NCBI RefSeq assembly: GCF_022063185.1
Contig: NZ_CP091913.1
Coordinates: forward strand, 1,132,501 to 1,196,500
DNA length: 64,000 bases
Source of the DNA: Nostoc sp. UHCC 0870
Lineage (GTDB): Bacteria > Cyanobacteriota > Cyanobacteriia > Cyanobacteriales > Nostocaceae
Reading direction: 5' to 3'
A program made the position numbers and the translations under genes. Shown one piece after another: positions 3 to 64,000 of the stretch. The notes below the pieces were generated by a model that saw only the letters and a list, made by a program, of their open reading frames with translations, searched no databases and was not told the origin of the DNA. Positions within the stretch are counted from its first letter, which is position 1, and every line of letters starts with the position of its first letter.

Positions 3-797
3 TTAGGCGCGATCGCCATATGGATTATTGGTCAAAGGTTGATTGATTTTGGCTTAAAATTACTACGGCGCGCTTTCCGCAGCCAAAATATTGAGCCGAC
101 ACTAATTAGCTATTTACTGAATATCGTTTCAGTAACGCTAAAAATTATCCTAATTGTGGCAATTCTCGGCTTTTTTGGCTTTGAAACTACTTCTTTTGCT
201 GCATTGTTAGCCGCACTTGGTATCGCCATTGGTGCAGCCTGGAGTGGATTATTAGCAAACTTTGCGGCTGGTGCTTTTTTAATGATTTTTCGTCCCTTTA
301 AGACAGGTGACATGATATCAGCCGCAGGTGTAATAGGAAAAGTGGCAGAAATTGGACTGTTTACAACAACAATAAATACACTGGATAATGTGATGACTAT
401 TGTCGCCAATAATAAAATATTTGCTGACAATATTGAGAATTTTTCTGCTAACCCTTACCGTCGTGTTGATCTTAAAGCACAACTACATCACAGTGTTGAT
501 CACAACGAAGCAATTAGGCTATTAAAACAACGCATTAGCCAAATTCCCAATGTGTTAAATAACCCAGCCCCAGATGTAGATATTTTGGACTTTAATCTAG
601 CAGGAACTGTATTAGCGGTGCGTCCCTATTGTAATAATGAACATTACTGGCAGGTTTATTTTGATACGAATAAAGTCATCAAACAAACCTTTGGTGAGGC
701 TGGTTATCCTGTTCCTGAACAACGTTACGCATTTACTGGCAATTCTGAAGATGGTACTAAGCCTTTTATCTCCTCTACATCTTTGAGAAATTTATAA
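3..797 (+). CDS. MscS-family mechanosensitive ion channel (5' end outside window)
   Basis: The reading frame is open from base 3 to the stop at 795-797, so the start lies upstream of the window; the internal TTG at 39 is not the true start. The visible part has two hydrophobic segments. The second is rich in Gly and Ala (around LGIAIGAAWSGLLANFAAG), like the pore-lining helix of MscS. It is followed by the beta-domain pattern RPFKTGDMI...GKVAEIGLFTTTI...IVANNKIF that is characteristic of the family. Known members release solutes from the inner membrane under osmotic downshock. The C-terminal alpha/beta domain is present and the protein ends normally. The family call is firm; the gated solute and any extra N-terminal domains cannot be seen. 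Confidence 0.9.
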   Translation, partial: LGAIAIWIIGQRLIDFGLKLLRRAFRSQNIEPTLISYLLNIVSVTLKIILIVAILGFFGFETTSFAALLAALGIAIGAAWSGLLANFAAGAFLMIFRPFKTGDMISAAGVIGKVAEIGLFTTTINTLDNVMTIVANNKIFADNIENFSANPYRRVDLKAQLHHSVDHNEAIRLLKQRISQIPNVLNNPAPDVDILDFNLAGTVLAVRPYCNNEHYWQVYFDTNKVIKQTFGEAGYPVPEQRYAFTGNSEDGTKPFISSTSLRNL

Positions 798-47548: not shown

Positions 47549-49690
47549 TCATTCAGACACCCTCTCAAACCTTTCCCTGACTTCTTCCACCGTCATCCCC
47601 AAAATATTAGCCACCGCTTGCAATAGACTCTCATCTTGGGTAGCTTGATAAAAACTAGCCAGATTGCTGATCGAAAGACCTAAATCATGTTCGTCATTAA
47701 ACTCAAACGTAATCTGTAAATCTTCCAGGTAATAGGTTTTGGCTTGTTCTATCTCTCCCCATTCCTTTGCAACCTGACCAAGTTGGTAGTAGGTACTAGC
47801 TTGGCTATAACGATCGCCAAATTCAATTTTGATATCCAAAGCCTGTTGATAATAGGTTTTGGCTTGTTCCCATTCCCTTAATTGCTGGGCTACACTTCCC
47901 AAATTATTGTAGGTGCGGGCTTGGCTTAAGCGATCGCTATATTCAATAAAGATATCCAAAGCTTGTTGATAATAAGTTTTGGCTTGTTCCCATTCCCTTA
48001 ATTCTTGGGTTAGTATTCCTAACTGTCCGTAGGTGCTGGCTTGGCTTAAGCGATCGCCAAATTCAAGTTTGATATCTAAAGCTTGTTGATAATAGGTTTT
48101 GGCTTGTTCCCATTCCCTTAATTCTTGGGCTACTTTTCCCAACTGGTGGTATGTGCTGGCTTGGCTTAAGCGATCACTAAATTCAATAAAGATATCTAAA
48201 GCTTGTTGATAATAGGTTTTGGCTTGTTCCCATTTCCTTAATTCTTGGGTTAGTATTCCTAACTGTCCGTAGGTGCTGGCTTGGCTTAAGCGATCGCCAT
48301 ATTCAATAAAGATATCCAAAGCTTGTTGATAATAGGTTTTGGCTTGTTCCCATTCCCTTAATTCTTGGGCTACGATTCCCAACTGGTGGTATGTGCGGGC
48401 TTGGCTTAAGCGATCGCTATATTCAATTTTGATATCCAAAGCTTGTTGATAATAGGTTTTGGCTTGTTCCCATTCCCTTAATTCTTGGGCTACCATTCCC
48501 AAGTTGTGGTATGTGCGGGCTTGGCTTAAGCGATCGCCATATTCAATAAAGATATCCAAAGCTTGTTGATAATAGGTTTTGGCCTGTTCCCATTCCCTTA
48601 ATTCTTGGGCTACACTTCCCAAGTTGTGGTAGGTGCGGGCTTGGCTTAAGCGATCGCCTATCTCTTGGTAAATGTTTAAACACTGCTGATAAAAGGTAGT
48701 AGCTTCTGAAAATTTTCTCAATTTTAAATAAGCATTACCTATCTTCAATAATGCAATATTTTCACGGCGGCGATTTTCTATCTGTCTAGAAATCAACAAT
48801 GATTCTTCATAATACTTGATTGCTGTTTCAAATTGCCTTTCTTGAGAGTAAGTATCACCTAATGTATTAATAACTTCTGATTGGAATAATCCGTCTTGAA
48901 AATTCTCAGCAATCTTTTTGGCTGCTTCTAAATATTCTCTAGCTTTTTCTGGCTTTATCTGGCTCAAATAAGCACGCCCTAGCTGATGTAAAATATTACT
49001 ATAGCTGCGGAGACTACCTTCTGTTGGCTGTTGCCCAGTTGGGTTATGTTCCATTAACAGACGGTGTAATATATCTATTCGTTCTTGCTTTTCTGGCGGT
49101 TCTAATCTATCTATGATCTCACTATTTTGAGTCTGACTAATAGCGTTTTCTATAGTTTTATTTGGTGTTTTAAAGCGAAATATTCCTGAACGCCAAGCCC
49201 AAAAATCAGGTGCAAATTTAGCTAGGCGCGTGATGGCATAGTCTGGCAGAATAAATAATATGGGATGAGGTACACTTCTTTTATAAGCATCCCGCACAAA
49301 ATTTAAGTCTTGTAAAACTGGCGGGTAGTCACCAAAAACACCAATAGCATTTTCTAAGCCTCTGACAATCAAGACTAACTTTTTATTCGCTTCTACCTGA
49401 ATATGAGCTAATCTTTGGACAATTTCATCTCGCAAAAATCGCAGATTAGCATCCTGAGAATTGACAATAAAAAATTGAATATTTTCACATTCTGGGTTAT
49501 TTTGCAACGCTGCAATTAATAAGTCTACATCTGGTGGAAAGTTAACTTCCACAAAACCAAGTGTAAACTTTTCTGCAAAGTCTATAAAAGTCAGTAACTC
49601 AGCAAAAGATTCTTGATTAATTGTGATAAATTGCCCAAGTTCTGCACTATTGACTTGTGAGTGCTGCAAGGGCTTTTTGGAAGAACTCAT
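47549..49690 (-). CDS. Tetratricopeptide-repeat protein, partner of the upstream NTPase
   Basis: A 713-residue protein. The first ~190 residues form a non-TPR alpha/beta domain (VEVNFPPDVDLLIAAL...KKLVLIVRGLENAIGVFGDYPP...HPILFILPDYAITRLA) resembling a P-loop-less NTPase sensor. About twelve TPRs follow from residue ~230. Seven consecutive repeats are nearly identical 40-residue units built on REWEQAKTYYQQALDI. The tail is LLQAVANILGMTVEEVRERFERV. The gene overlaps the end of the NTPase gene by 44 bp, so the two are coupled. TPR arrays of this kind bind proteins and are common in STAND-type sensors. Confidence 0.88.
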   Translation of the reverse strand: MSSSKKPLQHSQVNSAELGQFITINQESFAELLTFIDFAEKFTLGFVEVNFPPDVDLLIAALQNNPECENIQFFIVNSQDANLRFLRDEIVQRLAHIQVEANKKLVLIVRGLENAIGVFGDYPPVLQDLNFVRDAYKRSVPHPILFILPDYAITRLAKFAPDFWAWRSGIFRFKTPNKTIENAISQTQNSEIIDRLEPPEKQERIDILHRLLMEHNPTGQQPTEGSLRSYSNILHQLGRAYLSQIKPEKAREYLEAAKKIAENFQDGLFQSEVINTLGDTYSQERQFETAIKYYEESLLISRQIENRRRENIALLKIGNAYLKLRKFSEATTFYQQCLNIYQEIGDRLSQARTYHNLGSVAQELREWEQAKTYYQQALDIFIEYGDRLSQARTYHNLGMVAQELREWEQAKTYYQQALDIKIEYSDRLSQARTYHQLGIVAQELREWEQAKTYYQQALDIFIEYGDRLSQASTYGQLGILTQELRKWEQAKTYYQQALDIFIEFSDRLSQASTYHQLGKVAQELREWEQAKTYYQQALDIKLEFGDRLSQASTYGQLGILTQELREWEQAKTYYQQALDIFIEYSDRLSQARTYNNLGSVAQQLREWEQAKTYYQQALDIKIEFGDRYSQASTYYQLGQVAKEWGEIEQAKTYYLEDLQITFEFNDEHDLGLSISNLASFYQATQDESLLQAVANILGMTVEEVRERFERVSE
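47800..48660. repeat. Near-identical 120-bp tandem repeats inside the TPR gene
   Basis: Seven copies of a 120-bp unit, each containing GCTTGTTGATAATAGGTTTTGG and TTGGCTTAAGCGATCG in outline. They differ at a few positions that recur in alternating pattern (FIEYG versus KIEYS/KIEFG). The similarity at DNA level shows recent duplication or gene conversion. Confidence 0.9.
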
Positions 49691-50993
49691 TTTGTTTTAC
49701 CACGGGATTGGGGTAATTCCAACGTTTATTGCCGTTGTACTCTAAGACTGAAGTGTTAAACAGCATCAATTGACCAATTTCATCTTTGCTCACGTCTTTA
49801 TTGATGCACACTTGCGCTAAATGTTGATAATGTTCTTCAGGGATAAATCTTTCAAAACCAAATTGCTGTTGTTTGATAGCATATTCCACATCTTCAGCAG
49901 TAATTTTGGGATGTTTTTTAGTGCTAGCAGTTTGACAAGCACTCCGCATCATCTGCATAAGTTGACGGACATGACCACCACTAGCTTTAGTTAACTCTAG
50001 CAATTCTTGGCGAGATACAAATACAGCATCAACATCTACGCGCTTCTCTATCAAACTAGCAACCGCATCTAATCCGGCTTGATTGTAGTTTAAATTGCAG
50101 ACATCACGTTCAAATTCATAGATATTCACCATTGGCACAATATGAGGATTCCCATCAAACTGACATAGGGGATTTTTGGGTGAACAAAGAATAGAAATTG
50201 GTACTGTATAAATAATTGTACAGTGGAGTTCTTGTAACTGAGCTGCGTAGTCAAAAAATAAATGATCTGCAACCGCAGGGGGAACTCTATCTAGGTTATC
50301 AAAAATAATCAGTAAGCCTTTAAACTCAGGAAATTTTTTTCTAAGTTTAACGTAAGCATCACCCAGTAATAGGTTAATATCTGCCTTCAGGCGTGATAAG
50401 TCTTTTTCTAAAGTTTGGCGAATTGTAGTTTTTTGTTTATCAGAACCTTTAATCTGCGCTAGCAATTTCACCATTAATTTTGCGATAAATGGTGCTTGTG
50501 GTTGGAGGGTTGCTTCTCCCTCAATGCTGACAGATTTTTCTACACTTTCTTCTGTCTCTTGAGTAATTTCTTTAAACCAAGATTCAAAATTTTGTAATAA
50601 TGCTTTATCAAAATTTAAGCCTAATTTTCTTAACTCATATTCTACTTGCTTGATAACTATTAAATATAAATCTGTATAGTTAGCATCATTAATATCTGTT
50701 TCTTCATTTACTTCTAAATAAATAACATGATAATTTTCTTGCCAAAGCGTTTGAATACGTTTTAGCTCTGTACTTTTACCACACCCACGATGCCCAGTAA
50801 ATAGAATTGTGGTAAAGTCTGAGGGTTCTTGAAACTCTAGAAGTGTACTAACATTATCCACTGCTGAAGTTTTGCGGACTGCGGATAAATCGACATAGTA
50901 TTTTTCTATATCTTCACCTTCTAAGGGTTCAACGCTACAAGCTTGAAAGGCTGATTTCAGAGTATTAGCACGTTGAAAATTAGGTATGGCCAT
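49647..50993 (-). CDS. P-loop NTPase, Orc/Cdc6-STAND-like
   Basis: A 448-residue ATPase with Walker A GHRGCGKST (67-75), Walker B LLIIFDNLDR (D232) and a C-terminal winged-helix-like region (KASGGHVRQLMQMMRSAC, then ITAEDVEYAIKQQQ). The N-terminus PNFQRANTLKSAFQACSVEPL is a short leader. The layout resembles Orc1/Cdc6-like AAA and STAND-type regulators. It precedes and overlaps the TPR gene, suggesting a two-protein signalling NTPase in which the TPR partner senses or recruits. No effector domain is evident in either protein. Confidence 0.82.
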   Translation of the reverse strand: MAIPNFQRANTLKSAFQACSVEPLEGEDIEKYYVDLSAVRKTSAVDNVSTLLEFQEPSDFTTILFTGHRGCGKSTELKRIQTLWQENYHVIYLEVNEETDINDANYTDLYLIVIKQVEYELRKLGLNFDKALLQNFESWFKEITQETEESVEKSVSIEGEATLQPQAPFIAKLMVKLLAQIKGSDKQKTTIRQTLEKDLSRLKADINLLLGDAYVKLRKKFPEFKGLLIIFDNLDRVPPAVADHLFFDYAAQLQELHCTIIYTVPISILCSPKNPLCQFDGNPHIVPMVNIYEFERDVCNLNYNQAGLDAVASLIEKRVDVDAVFVSRQELLELTKASGGHVRQLMQMMRSACQTASTKKHPKITAEDVEYAIKQQQFGFERFIPEEHYQHLAQVCINKDVSKDEIGQLMLFNTSVLEYNGNKRWNYPNPVVKQNEFFQKALAALTSQ

Positions 50994-58365: not shown

Positions 58366-59742
58366 ATGATTAGCCCCATCTCATCAATTAATGGGTCAGA
58401 GACAACGGGAAGATATCTAGTATTATTGCGTGAAAATGCAATCGATTCAGGAATCCGCACACTGCGTGATTACACTGGGAACAGGAGAGTTGCTAGAGCA
58501 GCCGACTTTGAGAAAAATGCCGTTACCGCAGAGCAATTAGAGCAAACAGATACCACAATATTTGACAATTTGGGTGTTGCTGTTTGTACTCTCGACCCAG
58601 AACAGTTGCAGTCACTCCATACTGCGAGTGATGAAAGTAGTCCGATTGCTGTCATTGAAGCAGAGAGAGTTGTTTACGCTTTAAACGGTCAAGGATTGGG
58701 GGGTATTGTTGAACAACTAGCACCCAGGACTACCACTAATCCGGCAATGGAATACCTCAAAGGCTACCGAGATGCTGTGGATAGGCTCATAGATCATCTA
58801 GCACCCACAAATGGTACTACCAGGATGTTGCCTATGCCCGGTATGCAGGTGGTGGACGAAACAATAGCAACATGGGGACTACAAATCACAAAAGTCGTCA
58901 ATTCCAAATTTAGTGGACGGGGGATTAAAGTTGCCGTTCTCGACACAGGGTTCGACTTGACTCACCCTGATTTTGCCGGACGGAGGATAATCAGCAAATC
59001 GTTCATAGCTAACCAAGAGGTGCAAGATAGAAACGGGCATGGAACTCACTGCATCGGTACAGCTTGCGGTCCCCTTTCTCCTACTATCCCCCCGCGTTAT
59101 GGCATTGGTTACGAAACAGAAATCTTTGCCGGAAAAGTTTTAAGCAATCAGGGACGTGGGACTGATAGCGAAATCTTAGCAGGCATTGAATGGGCGATCG
59201 CCAATGGCTGCCCAATTGTCTCAATGTCTCTGGGAGCGCGTGTATTTCCTGGACAGAGGTACTCAGGGGTGTTCGAGGTTGTTGCTGATCGTGCGCTCCG
59301 CAATGGGATGTTAATTATCGCTGCGGCTGGTAACGATAGTGAGCGACATTTAGGCATAGTTGAGCCAGTTAGTCACCCAGCTAATTGTCCCTCGATCATG
59401 GCTGTAGGTGCGATTGACTCTCAACTGGAAGTTGCTTACTTTTCTAATGCTGGGCTTAATACCAATGGTGGTCAGGTCGATATTGTCGCTCCAGGGGCTG
59501 AACCGAGAACACCGGGGGGTAGTTCGAGAATTGATGTTCATTCAAGCTATCTGATGCCAACGAGGTACAGAAGGCTTAGGGGTACAAGTATGGCTGCACC
59601 CCATGTTGCTGGTATAGCTGCTCTGTATGCTGAGGCTATAGGGGCTACTGGCCGTGTTCTCTGGAATCGACTGACTCAAAATGCTCTCAGATTGCCTCTA
59701 CCTTCAGTAGATGTTGGGGCTGGACTTGTTCAAGCACCTTAG
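58366..59742 (+). CDS. Intracellular S8 (subtilisin-like) serine protease
   Basis: A 458-residue subtilase with catalytic triad D193 (VAVLDTGFD), H225 (RNGHGTHCIG) and S408 (RGTSMAAPHVAG), and oxyanion N323 (AAAGNDS). The N-terminal ~105 residues look like an I9-type propeptide (RYLVLLRENAIDSGIRTLRDYTG...VIEAERVVYAL). No signal peptide is present, so it should act in the cytosol. The ATG follows GAAGGGAAG. It is the first of five co-directional genes. As a putative effector it could be held inactive by its propeptide, or by the I9-like protein encoded next. Confidence 0.93.
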   Translation: MISPISSINGSETTGRYLVLLRENAIDSGIRTLRDYTGNRRVARAADFEKNAVTAEQLEQTDTTIFDNLGVAVCTLDPEQLQSLHTASDESSPIAVIEAERVVYALNGQGLGGIVEQLAPRTTTNPAMEYLKGYRDAVDRLIDHLAPTNGTTRMLPMPGMQVVDETIATWGLQITKVVNSKFSGRGIKVAVLDTGFDLTHPDFAGRRIISKSFIANQEVQDRNGHGTHCIGTACGPLSPTIPPRYGIGYETEIFAGKVLSNQGRGTDSEILAGIEWAIANGCPIVSMSLGARVFPGQRYSGVFEVVADRALRNGMLIIAAAGNDSERHLGIVEPVSHPANCPSIMAVGAIDSQLEVAYFSNAGLNTNGGQVDIVAPGAEPRTPGGSSRIDVHSSYLMPTRYRRLRGTSMAAPHVAGIAALYAEAIGATGRVLWNRLTQNALRLPLPSVDVGAGLVQAP

Positions 59743-59889
59743 AAGATTTTTCCTATCTTCTCACCTGAAGACCGTACTTCAACCATCCTTAGACTATACC
59801 TTGGGATGGTGAGTACCTATTTTAGCAATGCCGACTTAGCTGATAAGCATTGCAGTTTCTACTCCATAAAGCGGTAGGGAATTGTTGAT

Positions 59890-60129
59890 ATGTCAAATGT
59901 TAATTTATCAATTGCAGTTGATGAAAAATACATAGATCATATCCAGGAAGTAGCTCAAAACTTAGAGTCTTCTGGAATGAATGTTGGACAACTGTTGGAG
60001 AATCTGGGAATTATAACTGGTTCATGTGATTCTGAAAAAGTGGATGCTCTTGCTCAAGTTGAAGGAGTCTCTCATGTGGAACTGTCGCGAGAATATAAAT
60101 TACCACCACCGGAATCTGATGTCCAATAA
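59890..60129 (+). CDS. Stand-alone I9-inhibitor-like protein
   Basis: A 79-residue protein with the ferredoxin-like I9 pattern: LSIAVDEKYIDHIQEVAQNLESSGMNVGQLLENLGIITGSC then ALAQVEGVSHVELSREYKLPPPESDVQ. Such proteins resemble a free subtilase propeptide and can inhibit or fold the protease in trans. It lies 147 bp after the protease gene, with an ACCATCC/GGATGGT hairpin (59782-59810) in the gap. Similar proteins are sometimes mis-annotated as aldolases. Confidence 0.82.
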   Translation: MSNVNLSIAVDEKYIDHIQEVAQNLESSGMNVGQLLENLGIITGSCDSEKVDALAQVEGVSHVELSREYKLPPPESDVQ

Positions 60130-60207: not shown

Positions 60208-60669
60208 ATGTCAAACAAAATTAGCTTAAATGAATTTATTTCTCAAGTTAAAGAGGACTTGAAACCTACAGAAGATACACCAATCTTCTTTTTGGAAAAA
60301 GCAGAATTAGAGATTCATGTAGCAGTTTCAAAAGTGGGTTCAGTTGAAGGCGAAATCATGGGAAAATCTGACTTAAAAATTAGTGTACTAGGTGTGGATT
60401 TCTTCAAAATCGGCGAATTTCAAGCTAGTGGTAAAGCATCTGGAAGTCTAGAAAGAAAAGATATACATACTATAAAAGTGACCCTTGTACCAATTTTTAA
60501 TAATGAAGAGATAAAAACTAGTTTAACCGAAAATCAATTGATAGAAATAAAAAGAGCTATCAAGAGAAAAATAATGCGGGGAGAGGAGGAAGACCATAAC
60601 ACTAATTTAAGCGAAACAGAACTAGAAGAAAAAAATAAAGCTACTAAAAACAAAAGAATGCGTGGATAA
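60208..60669 (+). CDS. Trypco2-domain protein
   Basis: A 153-residue protein. Residues 1-110 match the trypsin-co-occurring domain 2 pattern: SLNEFISQVKEDL, an FFLEKAELEIHVAVSK strand, a Gly/Ser-rich GEFQASGKASGSLE region and DIHTIKVTLVPIF. Trypco domains were described beside trypsin-like proteases and STAND/conflict ATPases and are thought to be adaptor modules. Here the protease is a subtilase. The C-terminal 40 residues are a Lys/Glu/Arg-rich helix ending KNKRMRG. Confidence 0.8.
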   Translation: MSNKISLNEFISQVKEDLKPTEDTPIFFLEKAELEIHVAVSKVGSVEGEIMGKSDLKISVLGVDFFKIGEFQASGKASGSLERKDIHTIKVTLVPIFNNEEIKTSLTENQLIEIKRAIKRKIMRGEEEDHNTNLSETELEEKNKATKNKRMRG

Positions 60670-60690: not shown

Positions 60691-62376
60691 ATGTTTAAGA
60701 AAAAAATATTGATTTTAACAGCCAGCCCAGAAAATCATCTCAGGTTGCGGGTAGATAAAGAAATTAAAGCGATCGAGCAAGAATTAGATCGCTCTAAAAA
60801 TCGCGATAAGTTTGAAATTATTCCTAAATTGGCAGTGAACCCTGGCGACTTAATTCGGGTTCTAGAAGCCGAAAAACCAGAGATTGTCCATTTCTCTGGG
60901 CATGGAAAGCAGGCAGGTTTAGTTTTTGAGAATGAAGCAGGACAGTCTCAGCTAGTGAGTGCAGAAGCTCTGGCAAGGCTATTTAAGCAATTTAGGAATG
61001 AAATTCAGTGTGTTCTCTTAAATGCTTGCTATTCCGAATTTCAAGCTCAGGCAATCAACGAACACATTCATTACGTGATTGGTATCAGTAATCAGATTGA
61101 GGATACAGCAGCCATTAAATTTGCCGTCGGTTTTTATGCCTCCCTAATTGCCGGTCGTACCTATAAAGATGCTTATGACTTTGGTTGTATTGCTCTCGAT
61201 CTGGAGGGAATACCGGACGATTTGATCGACTTTAAGGAAAATACTCAATCCAATTTAACTGTTCCACGACTTCCCGAAAATCCCCCGACAACTCACCATT
61301 ATCTAAATATTATTAACGCCTTAAAGAGCGGAAGATTAATTCCATTCATTGGCCCGGGGTTTAACTTGTTTGACGAACAGTTAACGAATCAGAGACTCAG
61401 TGAAATTGAACTAGCAGATTACTTAGCCCAGAATTTAGGAATAACCTCTCCCTATGAAGATTTAGTAGGTGCGCCGTGTCCACTCTGCCTTGTCAGTGCA
61501 GATGATCTGCCAACCGATTGTCCTGTTAAGAAAGCCCTGCTGCAAGGCACAATTACAGCTTGTCCACTCGCTAACGAACAGGCACTTGCTCTAGCGAAGA
61601 TGAATCTTCAGTGCCTTGCTCAATATGTCCAGCTTACCTTCGGCATCAAGGATGTTTACGAAAGGTTGTACGAACTTTTGAGAGGGAAATACAGTCCTAG
61701 TCGATTTTATTTGTTCTGGGCTAATCTCCCTGAAAAAATGGAAGAAAAGCAATATCCTTTGCCTTACCAATTAATCGTGACCACCAATTACGATGATATG
61801 TTGGAACGGGCTTTTAGAGCAGCTAATCAACCGTTTGATTTAGTGTTCTATGTAGCAGAAGGCGAAGAGGTGCGTGGTCGATTCAAATATAAGCCGTTTG
61901 AAGAGAAAGCCCGTCCCATTGACAAGCCCAATCAATTGGAAGTCATCAGCAAAGCAAAAGATCGTCCAGTTATTCTCAAACTCTATGGCGTAGTTGATTT
62001 AATTGAGAGTCAACAGTGTAATTTTGTCATTACTGAAGATCACCACATCAATTATTTAGTCTACCGAGAGATTGGACAACTGCTGCCTAAGGATATTTTG
62101 GAAATTTTATGGGAAAGTCATAACATCTTGTTTATGGGTTTTAACCCCAGCGATCCTGATCTGCGGGTTATCATCAATCGAATCTGGGGAGAGCGGCTAG
62201 TTGGGCAAAAATCTTGGATGATCCATCAATCGAAGCCAGGGGAGCTAGATAAAACCTTCTGGAATAAGCGACAGGTAGAACTGATCGATAGCCGCTTAGA
62301 AGATTACTGTACTGACTTAGCCAATGGGATAGAAAAGCTGTCACCCAAGAAGTCCCTATATGAGCTTTGGAGTTAA
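60691..62376 (+). CDS. CHAT protease-SIR2-like fusion protein
   Basis: A 561-residue protein. The CHAT (caspase-like) domain (1-170) has the dyad H71 (VHFSGHGK) and C113 (LLNACYS). A SIR2-like domain (about 205-540) follows with LIPFIGPGFN (217-225), TTNYDDMLERA (N366) and MGFNPSDPDLR. Where SIR2 NADases usually have KLHG, this protein has KLYG (Y432). Between SIR2 motifs there are four cysteines in the spacing C263-x2-C266-x10-C277-x13-C291. CHAT and SIR2 are both known death effectors in bacterial immunity. The gene is 21 bp after trypco2 and 4 bp before the STAND gene. Confidence 0.9.
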   Translation: MFKKKILILTASPENHLRLRVDKEIKAIEQELDRSKNRDKFEIIPKLAVNPGDLIRVLEAEKPEIVHFSGHGKQAGLVFENEAGQSQLVSAEALARLFKQFRNEIQCVLLNACYSEFQAQAINEHIHYVIGISNQIEDTAAIKFAVGFYASLIAGRTYKDAYDFGCIALDLEGIPDDLIDFKENTQSNLTVPRLPENPPTTHHYLNIINALKSGRLIPFIGPGFNLFDEQLTNQRLSEIELADYLAQNLGITSPYEDLVGAPCPLCLVSADDLPTDCPVKKALLQGTITACPLANEQALALAKMNLQCLAQYVQLTFGIKDVYERLYELLRGKYSPSRFYLFWANLPEKMEEKQYPLPYQLIVTTNYDDMLERAFRAANQPFDLVFYVAEGEEVRGRFKYKPFEEKARPIDKPNQLEVISKAKDRPVILKLYGVVDLIESQQCNFVITEDHHINYLVYREIGQLLPKDILEILWESHNILFMGFNPSDPDLRVIINRIWGERLVGQKSWMIHQSKPGELDKTFWNKRQVELIDSRLEDYCTDLANGIEKLSPKKSLYELWS

Positions 62377-62380
62377 TTCT

Positions 62381-64000
62381 ATGGGTGAAGTACCTTACCT
62401 GGGTTTAAATCCATTTTCAGAAAAAGACGCACCATTCTTTTTTGGCCGGGATGAGCAAAAAAGAGCGATCGCCAGAAATCTTCGGGTTTCGCGTCTGACA
62501 GTCCTGCTGGGGGAAAGTGGAGTAGGCAAGAGTTCCATTCTGCAAGCTGGCGTTGTTCCCCAGTTCCACCGAGATGGCGAACAACACCAACAAGAGCATG
62601 ATGGTAAGCCTTTGTGGGCTGTTGTTGTGTTCAATGCCTGGCACAGTGATAATCCGTTGATGCTACTAGTAAACGAGATTCGGCATTCTGTTGCCGCAGC
62701 ATTAAAAATTGACCCGGCTAGCTTGAAAGATGAGGCAACAATCACCGAAAGTCTGCAAACCTGGACAGAGATGTTGAGTGAAGAGCCAGAAAGAGGTCAA
62801 ATTTTTATTATTCTAGACCAATTTGAGGAGTACTTTCAGTATCACTCACAGGAGTCTGGCGAAGAAACATTCGCCGATGAGTTTCCCCGATGGGTCAATC
62901 GTCCCAGCTTGTCGGTCAATTTCCTCATTGCCATGCGCCAGGATGCTCTAGCTAAACTCAATCACTTCCAGGGACGAATTATCAATATATTTGATAATCA
63001 ACTGGTACTCCAGCGTCTTGACCGACCTTCAGCACGAGACGCAATTGTCAAGCCAATTGGGCAATACAACCTGCAACAGATTATCACCAACCACTTTATG
63101 ACCTCGCGACTCACCCTACTTTCTACACCTAGTATGGAAAAAAGTCGCATCCTCAAGTATGGTGTTGTCCATCGCTTGCAGCAGATCGCCCAGCAAAATC
63201 TGCACAATCAGAGCGTACCTCAAATAGCTACTGTTATTTTTAATTACTGGCGTGGTAATCCGGTCGTTAATTTAAAACAGCAGGTGGATAACGACATCAG
63301 AAAAATCTTTCCCGATGTCCAAGTTCCTCAAGCCGGGACTTCATTGGCTCAAACCTTGCAGGAGTGGGCGGAGCATATCAGTGGTAAAGAAGGAAAAGGT
63401 AAACTTTTTATTATCCTCGACCAGTTTGAAGAGTTTTTCCAGTATCAGCAGCCAGACATGGAAGAAGGAAGCTTTGTTGCCGAATTTGCCCGTGCGGTCA
63501 ATTATGCTGAACTACCTGTCCATTTCCTGATTGCTATCCGTGATGAGGCATTAAATTTACTCAAATATTTTGAACAGCGCATCCCTGGTATTTTTGACAA
63601 CCACTTGCGTATTAAAGAACTAGAAGAAGACTCAGCGATCGCTGATTTAGTCAAACCGATTGAAGAACCAACCGACAAAACAAGCCAGGCGATCGCGATC
63701 GAACCCGAACTAGTTGAGGAGGTCTTAAATCAGGTTCAGGTGGGTATGGTTTCTCTCATCGAAACTGATCAGGGTAGGATAAGTATTCCTTCTACCTCCC
63801 AAGAAAATATAGAAATTGAAGCTCCCTTTCTAGAACTGGTAATGGAACGCCTCTGGAAAGAAGAGATCGGCAAAAAAGGCTCACACTGCCTACGGTTAGA
63901 GACACTGAATCAATTCAGCATTCCAGAGAAGAATATAACTGCCGCCCAAAGGATCGCTAACGAGCATCTAAGTGAACAGATGAATATTCTCTCAGACAGA
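62381..64000 (+). CDS. STAND NTPase (nSTAND1-like), 3' end outside window
   Basis: The frame is open from ATG 62381 to the end of the window (540 codons, no stop). YLGLNPFSEKDAPFFFGRDEQ is the usual nSTAND1 start. Walker A GESGVGKSS lies near 43-51 and Walker B IFIILDQFEEYF near 136-147. The module is then repeated: LLSTPSMEKSRIL near 246-258 stands where the P-loop should be and lacks its glycines, and LFIILDQFEEFF recurs near 338-349. FLELVMERLWKEE near 485 leads towards the winged-helix region. A C-terminal sensor (often WD40 or TPR) is expected beyond the window. Confidence 0.88.
   Translation, partial: MGEVPYLGLNPFSEKDAPFFFGRDEQKRAIARNLRVSRLTVLLGESGVGKSSILQAGVVPQFHRDGEQHQQEHDGKPLWAVVVFNAWHSDNPLMLLVNEIRHSVAAALKIDPASLKDEATITESLQTWTEMLSEEPERGQIFIILDQFEEYFQYHSQESGEETFADEFPRWVNRPSLSVNFLIAMRQDALAKLNHFQGRIINIFDNQLVLQRLDRPSARDAIVKPIGQYNLQQIITNHFMTSRLTLLSTPSMEKSRILKYGVVHRLQQIAQQNLHNQSVPQIATVIFNYWRGNPVVNLKQQVDNDIRKIFPDVQVPQAGTSLAQTLQEWAEHISGKEGKGKLFIILDQFEEFFQYQQPDMEEGSFVAEFARAVNYAELPVHFLIAIRDEALNLLKYFEQRIPGIFDNHLRIKELEEDSAIADLVKPIEEPTDKTSQAIAIEPELVEEVLNQVQVGMVSLIETDQGRISIPSTSQENIEIEAPFLELVMERLWKEEIGKKGSHCLRLETLNQFSIPEKNITAAQRIANEHLSEQMNILSDR

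Follow-up and report, generated by a model that had tools for sequence, protein, structure and literature searches.

The general setting of the gene described here, a tandem nSTAND1 gene at the end of a 64,000-nucleotide stretch of Nostoc sp. UHCC 0870 (contig NZ_CP091913.1, positions 1,132,501 to 1,196,500 of the forward strand; hereafter the window), is already known from work on nSTAND1 NTPases, inactive STANDs, FtsH-associated pairs and Avs5 (PMC8195603, PMC7159879, PMC12839542, PMC12931631). The nSTAND1 NTPases (PF20703; named in PMC8195603) carry a core, a helical region and sensor repeats in this order. Inactive STANDs, in which a STAND fold with eroded nucleoside triphosphate (NTP) motifs sits in a conflict system, include iSTAND and iSTAND2 of the MoxR-vWA systems and the BrxB-like iSTAND of BREX (PMC7159879, PMC8195603, PMC12839542), and are separate proteins or parts of other fusions; in the BrxB-like form Walker A and Walker B are both eroded, and a three-stranded sheet is inserted after strand 4 (PMC12839542). 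The nSTAND2 two-gene system pairs an active STAND with an inactive one in what is presumed to be a mixed ring (PMC8195603), and proteins of FtsH ternary systems contain two AAA+ copies, the first of which is inactive, having lost P-loop and Walker B (PMC7159879). In AVAST type 5 (Avs5), a SIR2_2 domain that acts as the effector is coupled to an nSTAND3 NTPase in one chain, and some members lack the HG histidine (PMC12931631).

The window protein follows the nSTAND1 order and both of its cores match this family, but its core is doubled, and the second copy (core B) lacks the FFGR motif and part of the NTP site. Unlike the described inactive STANDs, its inactive core lies in the same chain as the active parent (core A), and Walker B of core B is intact, in contrast to that of the BrxB-like form. 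What takes two genes in nSTAND2 is found here in one chain. As in the FtsH ternary systems, there are two AAA+ copies per chain, one without a P-loop, although here they are of STAND type, the affected copy is the second, and the losses are variable; an active/inactive pair in one chain, which the initial annotation of this DNA had called unusual for a STAND protein, thus has a precedent. The coupling of SIR2_2 to a STAND NTPase recalls Avs5, but two genes are used here, the STAND is nSTAND1, and the SIR2 is mostly fused to another effector, which places the locus outside AVAST type 5, where SIR2 and nSTAND3 share one chain. No tandem nSTAND1 was found in the accessible portions of papers on nSTAND1, PMC8195603 among them, and in a limited search of the open literature, with few subscription journals, we recognized no description of a tandem nSTAND1 with variable loss in one chain, nor of an effector-carrying SIR2 without the histidine. 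The reading that we favor, to which we would give a probability of about one half, is that this gene and its upstream neighbor make up a two-gene, conflict-type switch in which core A would be the NTPase, core B a maintained pseudo-NTPase core, and the degenerate SIR2 an adaptor carrying the effector.

Results

The features of the tandem gene, in window coordinates, are as follows.

62360..64000, plus strand: nSTAND1(A)-nSTAND1(B)-lid/winged-helix region-hydrophobic segment-WD40 gene, running past the window end (whole gene L010:5361-8507, 1048 aa)
62438..62449, plus strand: FFGR motif (hhGR-type), residues 27-30, N-terminal to core A, read from the sequence; no counterpart in core B
62459..63058, plus strand: core A, residues 34-233, a working NTPase by motifs (self-alignment, motif alignment)
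62510..62533, plus strand: Walker A of core A, GESGVGKS (self-alignment, motif alignment)
62801..62836, plus strand: Walker B block of core A, IFIILDQFEEYF (self-alignment, motif alignment)
63023..63103, plus strand: predicted long helix linking A to B, model residues 214-240 (A+B model)
63074..63661, plus strand: core B, residues 239-434, second copy of the P-loop fold, its NTP site degenerate (self-alignment, fold model, structure matches)
63116..63145, plus strand: degenerate Walker A of core B, LLSTPSMEKS (self-alignment, motif alignment)
63404..63439, plus strand: Walker B block of core B, LFIILDQFEEFF, intact (self-alignment, motif alignment)
63692..64000, plus strand: post-B lid/helical region, adjoining core A directly in single-core relatives (single-core alignment; VIA-align to ORC2)

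The nSTAND1 profile (Pfam PF20703) matches the protein in two stretches with 180.3 bits, against a curated cut-off of 27.1. Core A and core B are identical at 78 of 194 aligned positions (40%), and the local alignment of residues 31-235 with residues 236-440 scored 307, while 1000 shuffles gave a mean of 32.2, a standard deviation of 5.2 and a maximum of 58, which excludes chance similarity. The P-loops start at residue 49 (LLGESGVGKS) in A and 253 (LLSTPSMEKS) in B, and the Walker B blocks at residues 148 and 349. The repeat noticed in the initial annotation some 203 residues downstream is therefore real (the A-to-B spacing is 201-204 residues), all the flanking pairs listed there (VVFNAW/VIFNYW, IFDNQL/IFDNHL, IVKPI/LVKPI) could be found, and the second Walker A has indeed lost its glycines. 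To describe the NTP site we used the FFGR motif, Walker A, the Walker B Asp and the strand-4 Arg, which we take to be the criteria for nSTAND1. Core A has all four; in core B of the window the FFGR motif, both Walker A glycines and one spacer residue of the P-loop are gone, and the P-loop Lys and Ser, the Walker B Asp and the Arg are present. With its degenerate P-loop, this core B probably does not work as a normal NTPase. The frame is open across 1048 aa and in the homologues, which rules out a frameshift or pseudogene. The initial annotation covered the part of the protein within the window; a hydrophobic stretch (peak at residues 656-674, mean hydropathy 1.76) and, C-terminal to the cores, WD40 repeats recognized by Pfam lie beyond the window's end. 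The closest relatives, found in a scan of genome contigs, are from Nostoc, with 91% and 82% identity.

Whether the second segment is a P-loop fold had been set beforehand as a check. Core B, modeled alone with 12 aligned sequences, gave a predicted local distance difference test score (pLDDT) of 82.3 and a predicted template modeling score (pTM) of 0.81, with the expected strand-P-loop-helix order. Its top solved match in Foldseek was archaeal ORC2 (1w5t_A, E 4.3e-6), and VIA-align superposed it on 1w5t_A over 181 residues (Z 14.6, root-mean-square deviation, rmsd, 5.2), on the STAND-like 2fna over 171 (Z 12.8, rmsd 4.5) and on Avs3 8dgc_A over 176 (Z 12.0, rmsd 4.8). The best solved matches are thus ORC2/Cdc6, TnsC, STAND-like ATPases and Avs3, all consistent with a P-loop NTPase fold, as the initial annotation had supposed, and a different fold is ruled out by the model and these matches. 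In place of the three-stranded sheet insert of BrxB-like proteins, strand 157-164 of the model is followed by a single short strand (185-187). A search with the A2 profile against solved structures returned one significant sequence, 2qen. The A+B region (539 residues) was modeled with pLDDT 81.1 and pTM 0.77, and a single long helix runs from A into B. In the top VIA-align row model residues 2..524 correspond to ORC2 10..293, with 261 residues aligned (Z 16.1, rmsd 3.6), and the tandem-model rows in general start at residue 1-19 and end at 512-539 with 219-275 aligned residues, these rows giving the first and last aligned residues only. Because they span both ends over so few aligned residues, core A and the post-B region would together make one ORC-like unit, with B skipped; in agreement with this, the post-B region follows core A directly in single-core relatives.

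Tandem proteins occur in at least 14 of the 217 family genomes, where they were confirmed on individual loci, at least 6 of 388 in the order sample (two of them also in the family set) and at least 3 of 378 in the class sample, all lower bounds because the best loci only were examined. Altogether there are 20 distinct tandem proteins, including those of Stenomitos and others from the genome-contig scan, and every one is cyanobacterial; the non-cyanobacterial loci, which came from one such scan and include several contig fragments, are all single-core. Loci that agreed in frame length and in match coordinates were taken as duplicates of one protein and dropped before counting (L001, L002, L011, L020 and L034 equal the window gene; L035, L036, L038, L048 and L110 equal L023, L025, L026, L027 and L024, respectively; L013 and L021 equal L037), whereas L068 and L074 were counted even though core B was weakly detected in them (35-38 and 20 bits, respectively, for the pieces matched by the B profile). 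In an alignment of 19 of these proteins, the FFGR-type GR, GxxxxGK[ST], the Walker B Asp and the strand-4 Arg are each present in 19/19 A cores. In the B cores, FFGR is found in 0/19, Walker A in 13/19 (that of the Calothrix protein L026 among them), the Walker B Asp in 18/19, the Arg in 12/19 and the P-loop Lys in 19/19. In the 20th protein, G927, read by eye, core A is intact, whereas the P-loop of core B is one residue short and its Arg is a His.

What all 20 B copies share is therefore the absence of FFGR. A dead P-loop is not common to all of them, and core B loses different elements in different lineages, be it the P-loop, the strand-4 Arg or Walker B. The Walker A glycines are missing from B of the window and of its Nostoc and Stenomitos relatives, with L023 and L024 keeping GKS; L068 and L070 lack the second glycine; the Walker B Asp is lost in L074, and Walker B is altered in L073; and the Arg is replaced by His in 8 of the 20. 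Even among the 13 B copies with an intact P-loop, 8 lack another element (Arg to His in seven, the Walker B Asp in one), and Walker A, Asp and Arg are kept together in 5/20 B copies as opposed to 20/20 A copies. Fisher tests of A against B, uncorrected for relatedness, gave p 0.008 for Walker A and 8e-7 for all three elements. In single-core relatives a strict Walker A is present in 50/55 and 8/9, the exceptions having Ala for the first Gly (five) or no Lys (L118). These counts bear on what had been claimed from the window protein. A degenerate second Walker A as a conserved family trait is ruled out by the intact GxxxxGK[ST] of core B in 13 of the 20 tandem homologues; that only one half binds NTP is plausible for the window protein, where the P-loop is degenerate; and a random mutation, the alternative considered at the time, would fit the frequent intact second Walker A in homologues but not the absence of FFGR from every B copy or the frequent loss of other elements.

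With regard to history, in a 57-row tree the B cores form one side of a branch (support 94/93), and the A cores are mixed with single-core proteins; holding A and B of the second clade together was rejected by the approximately unbiased (AU) test (p 0.00018). Because of this branch and the AU tests, one old duplication is favored, although it is not proven for the window's clade. The losses on the B tree require at least two changes for Walker A, at least two for the Arg and at least one for Walker B; the tree is weak and two long branches (L068, L070) meet, which makes the Walker A number a lower estimate, and the Walker B label includes the Gln-to-His/Tyr changes of L027, L047 and L073 as well. 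The ratio of non-synonymous to synonymous rates (omega), from close pairs with finite values (one B pair was saturated), is 0.13-0.24 for B in the window's clade and 0.26-0.34 and 0.19-0.40 in two other clades, against 0.10-0.20, 0.04-0.18 and 0.14-0.24 for A in the same three clades. By these values, core B is kept by purifying selection in the close pairs compared, yet is freer than A. One single-core protein (L012:1-2274, minus strand) has about 35 extra residues, slightly B-like, at the position of B; this stretch, which its sisters L064 and L065 lack, could be a remnant of B. A tblastn search of a plasmid collection for core B gave no match at 1e-8.

The gene directly upstream, which shares 17 bases with the nSTAND1 gene, encodes the partner.

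60691..62376, plus strand: partner gene, CHAT fused to SIR2_2 (Pfam CHAT 35.0 bits, cut-off 24; SIR2_2 65.5 bits, cut-off 24.5)
61984..61986, plus strand: Tyr codon (KLYG) replacing the histidine of the SIR2 HG motif (sequence, profile alignment)

Its CHAT domain matches the family and has the SGHG and NACYS motifs, presumably the CHAT His/Cys pair. PADLOC profiles match parts only of the protein (chat 3.1e-18, ThsA 2.9e-7). Its SIR2 part, which matches SIR2_2, reads KLYG where the catalytic histidine of HG would stand. Taken alone this part had no close solved relative by sequence and a 19-row profile was needed; the profile of 19 partners matches the structures of ThsA, DSR2 and KomC and aligns KLYG with their KxHG, and the structure entries aligned at this position name H171A of DSR2 and H146N of KomC. 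In all 40 partner-bearing loci (20 tandem and 20 single-core, picked by their nSTAND1 core) the SIR2_2 partner is the gene immediately upstream and has the same orientation, with a gap of -72 to +115 bases measured to the stop-to-stop frame. None was seen in the examined stretches of the single-core loci L105 (cut by a contig end) and L138 and its surroundings, and fragments such as L030-L032 could not be judged. At the HG column the 40 partners have Tyr (28), Phe (6), His (4), Cys (1) or Arg (1), so that 36 lack His; in the 20 tandem loci there are 18 Tyr, one Phe, one Cys and no His. An effector domain is fused to the partner in 19 of the 20 tandem loci, L027 having none in the same frame and a CHAT on the upstream frame. 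By Pfam, the fused effectors are CHAT, PNP_UDP_1, Metallophos, TIR, trypsin and ParA-like domains, plus a hydrolase below the cut-off; the labels below cut-offs are the hydrolase in L103 and CHAT in L126 and L132, and L131, cut by a contig end, was left out of the effector scan. The SIR2 His is kept in 1/34 partners with an effector (L135) and in 3/5 without (L028, L029, which reads KLHG, and L134), with a Fisher p of 0.004, relatedness not corrected.

Further genes surround this pair. Upstream of the partner come, in this order, a Trypco2 protein, a 79-aa frame and an S8 protease, and downstream of the STAND gene a radical-SAM maturase.

60208..60669, plus strand: Trypco2 protein, upstream neighbor (Pfam 38.5 bits; also upstream in L023, L024 and L025)

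The S8 protease (Pfam 160 bits) and the 79-aa frame occupy 58366-60129, and both also occur in L025. The small frame has a weak match, below the cut-off, to the CspB_prodomain protease prodomain (E 0.0033), and the two are possibly a protease and a separate propeptide-like inhibitor. The maturase (L010:8522-9990, past the window at about 65521-66989) matches GrrM/OscB with 545 bits. Ahead of it lies a 90-aa frame whose start is signal-like, and L023 and L025 have similar frames; the small frame and the maturase are a candidate peptide-modification pair adjoining the system. Elsewhere in the window (47549-50993, minus strand), there are two adjacent genes, read from their sequence only; one product resembles a P-loop ATPase (GHRGCGKST), and the other contains many tetratricopeptide-like repeats.

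Discussion

We propose that the product of the tandem gene is the NTP-dependent switch in a conflict-type system of two genes, probably directed against invaders. Core B arose by duplication within the gene and would have been placed between core A and its lid region; in this view it arrived without the FFGR segment, later lost other elements of the NTP site in a lineage-dependent manner, and was retained by selection as a non-catalytic structural domain. A ligand bound by the C-terminal WD40 propeller might trigger nucleotide exchange on core A and thereby assembly of the protein, in which core B could serve as a fixed interface or as a dock for the partner. The partner SIR2, devoid of the catalytic histidine, would act as an adaptor that gathers copies of its fused effector, here the CHAT peptidase.

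Several observations weigh against this proposal. The five B copies that have Walker A, Asp and Arg could bind nucleotide, and B keeps the Walker B Asp in 19/20 and the P-loop Lys in 20/20 copies; a duplication private to the window's clade was not rejected (AU p 0.145). With respect to the partner, L135 keeps the His despite its fused trypsin domain, L108 has neither the His nor a recognized effector, and most SIR2s of the window's clade keep TTNYD, the change of TTN to TTC or alike being seen in L033, L100, L102, L106, L107, L130 and L137. Nor is HG strictly required in SIR2 defense proteins: PaAvs5-1 works with NG, and Ala or Gln at the HG position abolished protection (PMC12931631). Because PaAvs5-1 is active with NG, SIR2s with Tyr or Phe may retain activity, and their inactivity is predicted from the motif only.

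The same data can be read in other ways. The 13 of 20 B copies with GxxxxGK[ST] and the 19 with a Walker B Asp would suit a second nucleotide-binding core in most of the family, perhaps non-hydrolyzing and of the sensor type, with two nucleotide sites per protein and a recent loss of the P-loop in the window's clade; we regard this as unlikely, since FFGR is absent from 20/20 B copies, 8 of the 13 P-loop-intact copies lack Arg or Asp, and in several close pairs the non-synonymous sites of B evolve at roughly double the rate of those of A. It is also conceivable, albeit distinctly improbable in our opinion, that B packs onto A in the manner of a neighboring ring subunit, which it would replace, forming the internal pseudo-dimer suggested in the initial annotation. 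Two cores per chain, a long predicted helix between them, a pTM of 0.77 for the combined model and the active/inactive STAND pair acting in trans in nSTAND2 (PMC8195603) are in line with this, but most P-loop-intact B copies of clade II have lost the arginine that a neighbor or sensor could use.

A role for B as the receptor of the invader's nucleic acid, as proposed for inactive STAND domains generally (PMC8195603), would fit an inactive STAND/ORC-like fold within a conflict-type system and the fact that ORC/Cdc6 and TnsC head the solved-structure matches, although the latter shows the fold only. The net charge of B, mostly negative (median -6, against -3 for A, in 19 proteins), weakly disfavors it, a WD40 propeller is already available as candidate sensor, and the model has no iSTAND-type sheet insert after strand 4, all of which leads us to hold this role as very unlikely. 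Least of all do we expect B to be a neutral leftover, a structurally entangled duplication with no role of its own: losses do vary among lineages, and single-core relatives with the same partner type do occur, but B is under purifying selection in three clades and its frame is open in all 20 proteins.

Returning to the two-gene switch, its broader form could be a modular STAND platform built on two retired enzymes, namely a SIR2 that lost its NADase histidine on becoming the carrier of exchangeable effectors (CHAT, phosphorylase, calcineurin-like phosphoesterase, TIR, trypsin, ParA-like, hydrolase), and a second STAND core, present in some of the cyanobacteria, which was duplicated and then retired by different routes as a fixed interface; we put this forward tentatively, as somewhat short of an even chance. 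If the proposed switch is correct, an immune-type switch carries its own inactive copy, and the role of inactive STAND domains would become testable within one protein, by comparing one-core and two-core close relatives that have the same kind of partner. The partner itself would then be a second case in which an enzyme has changed into an adaptor.
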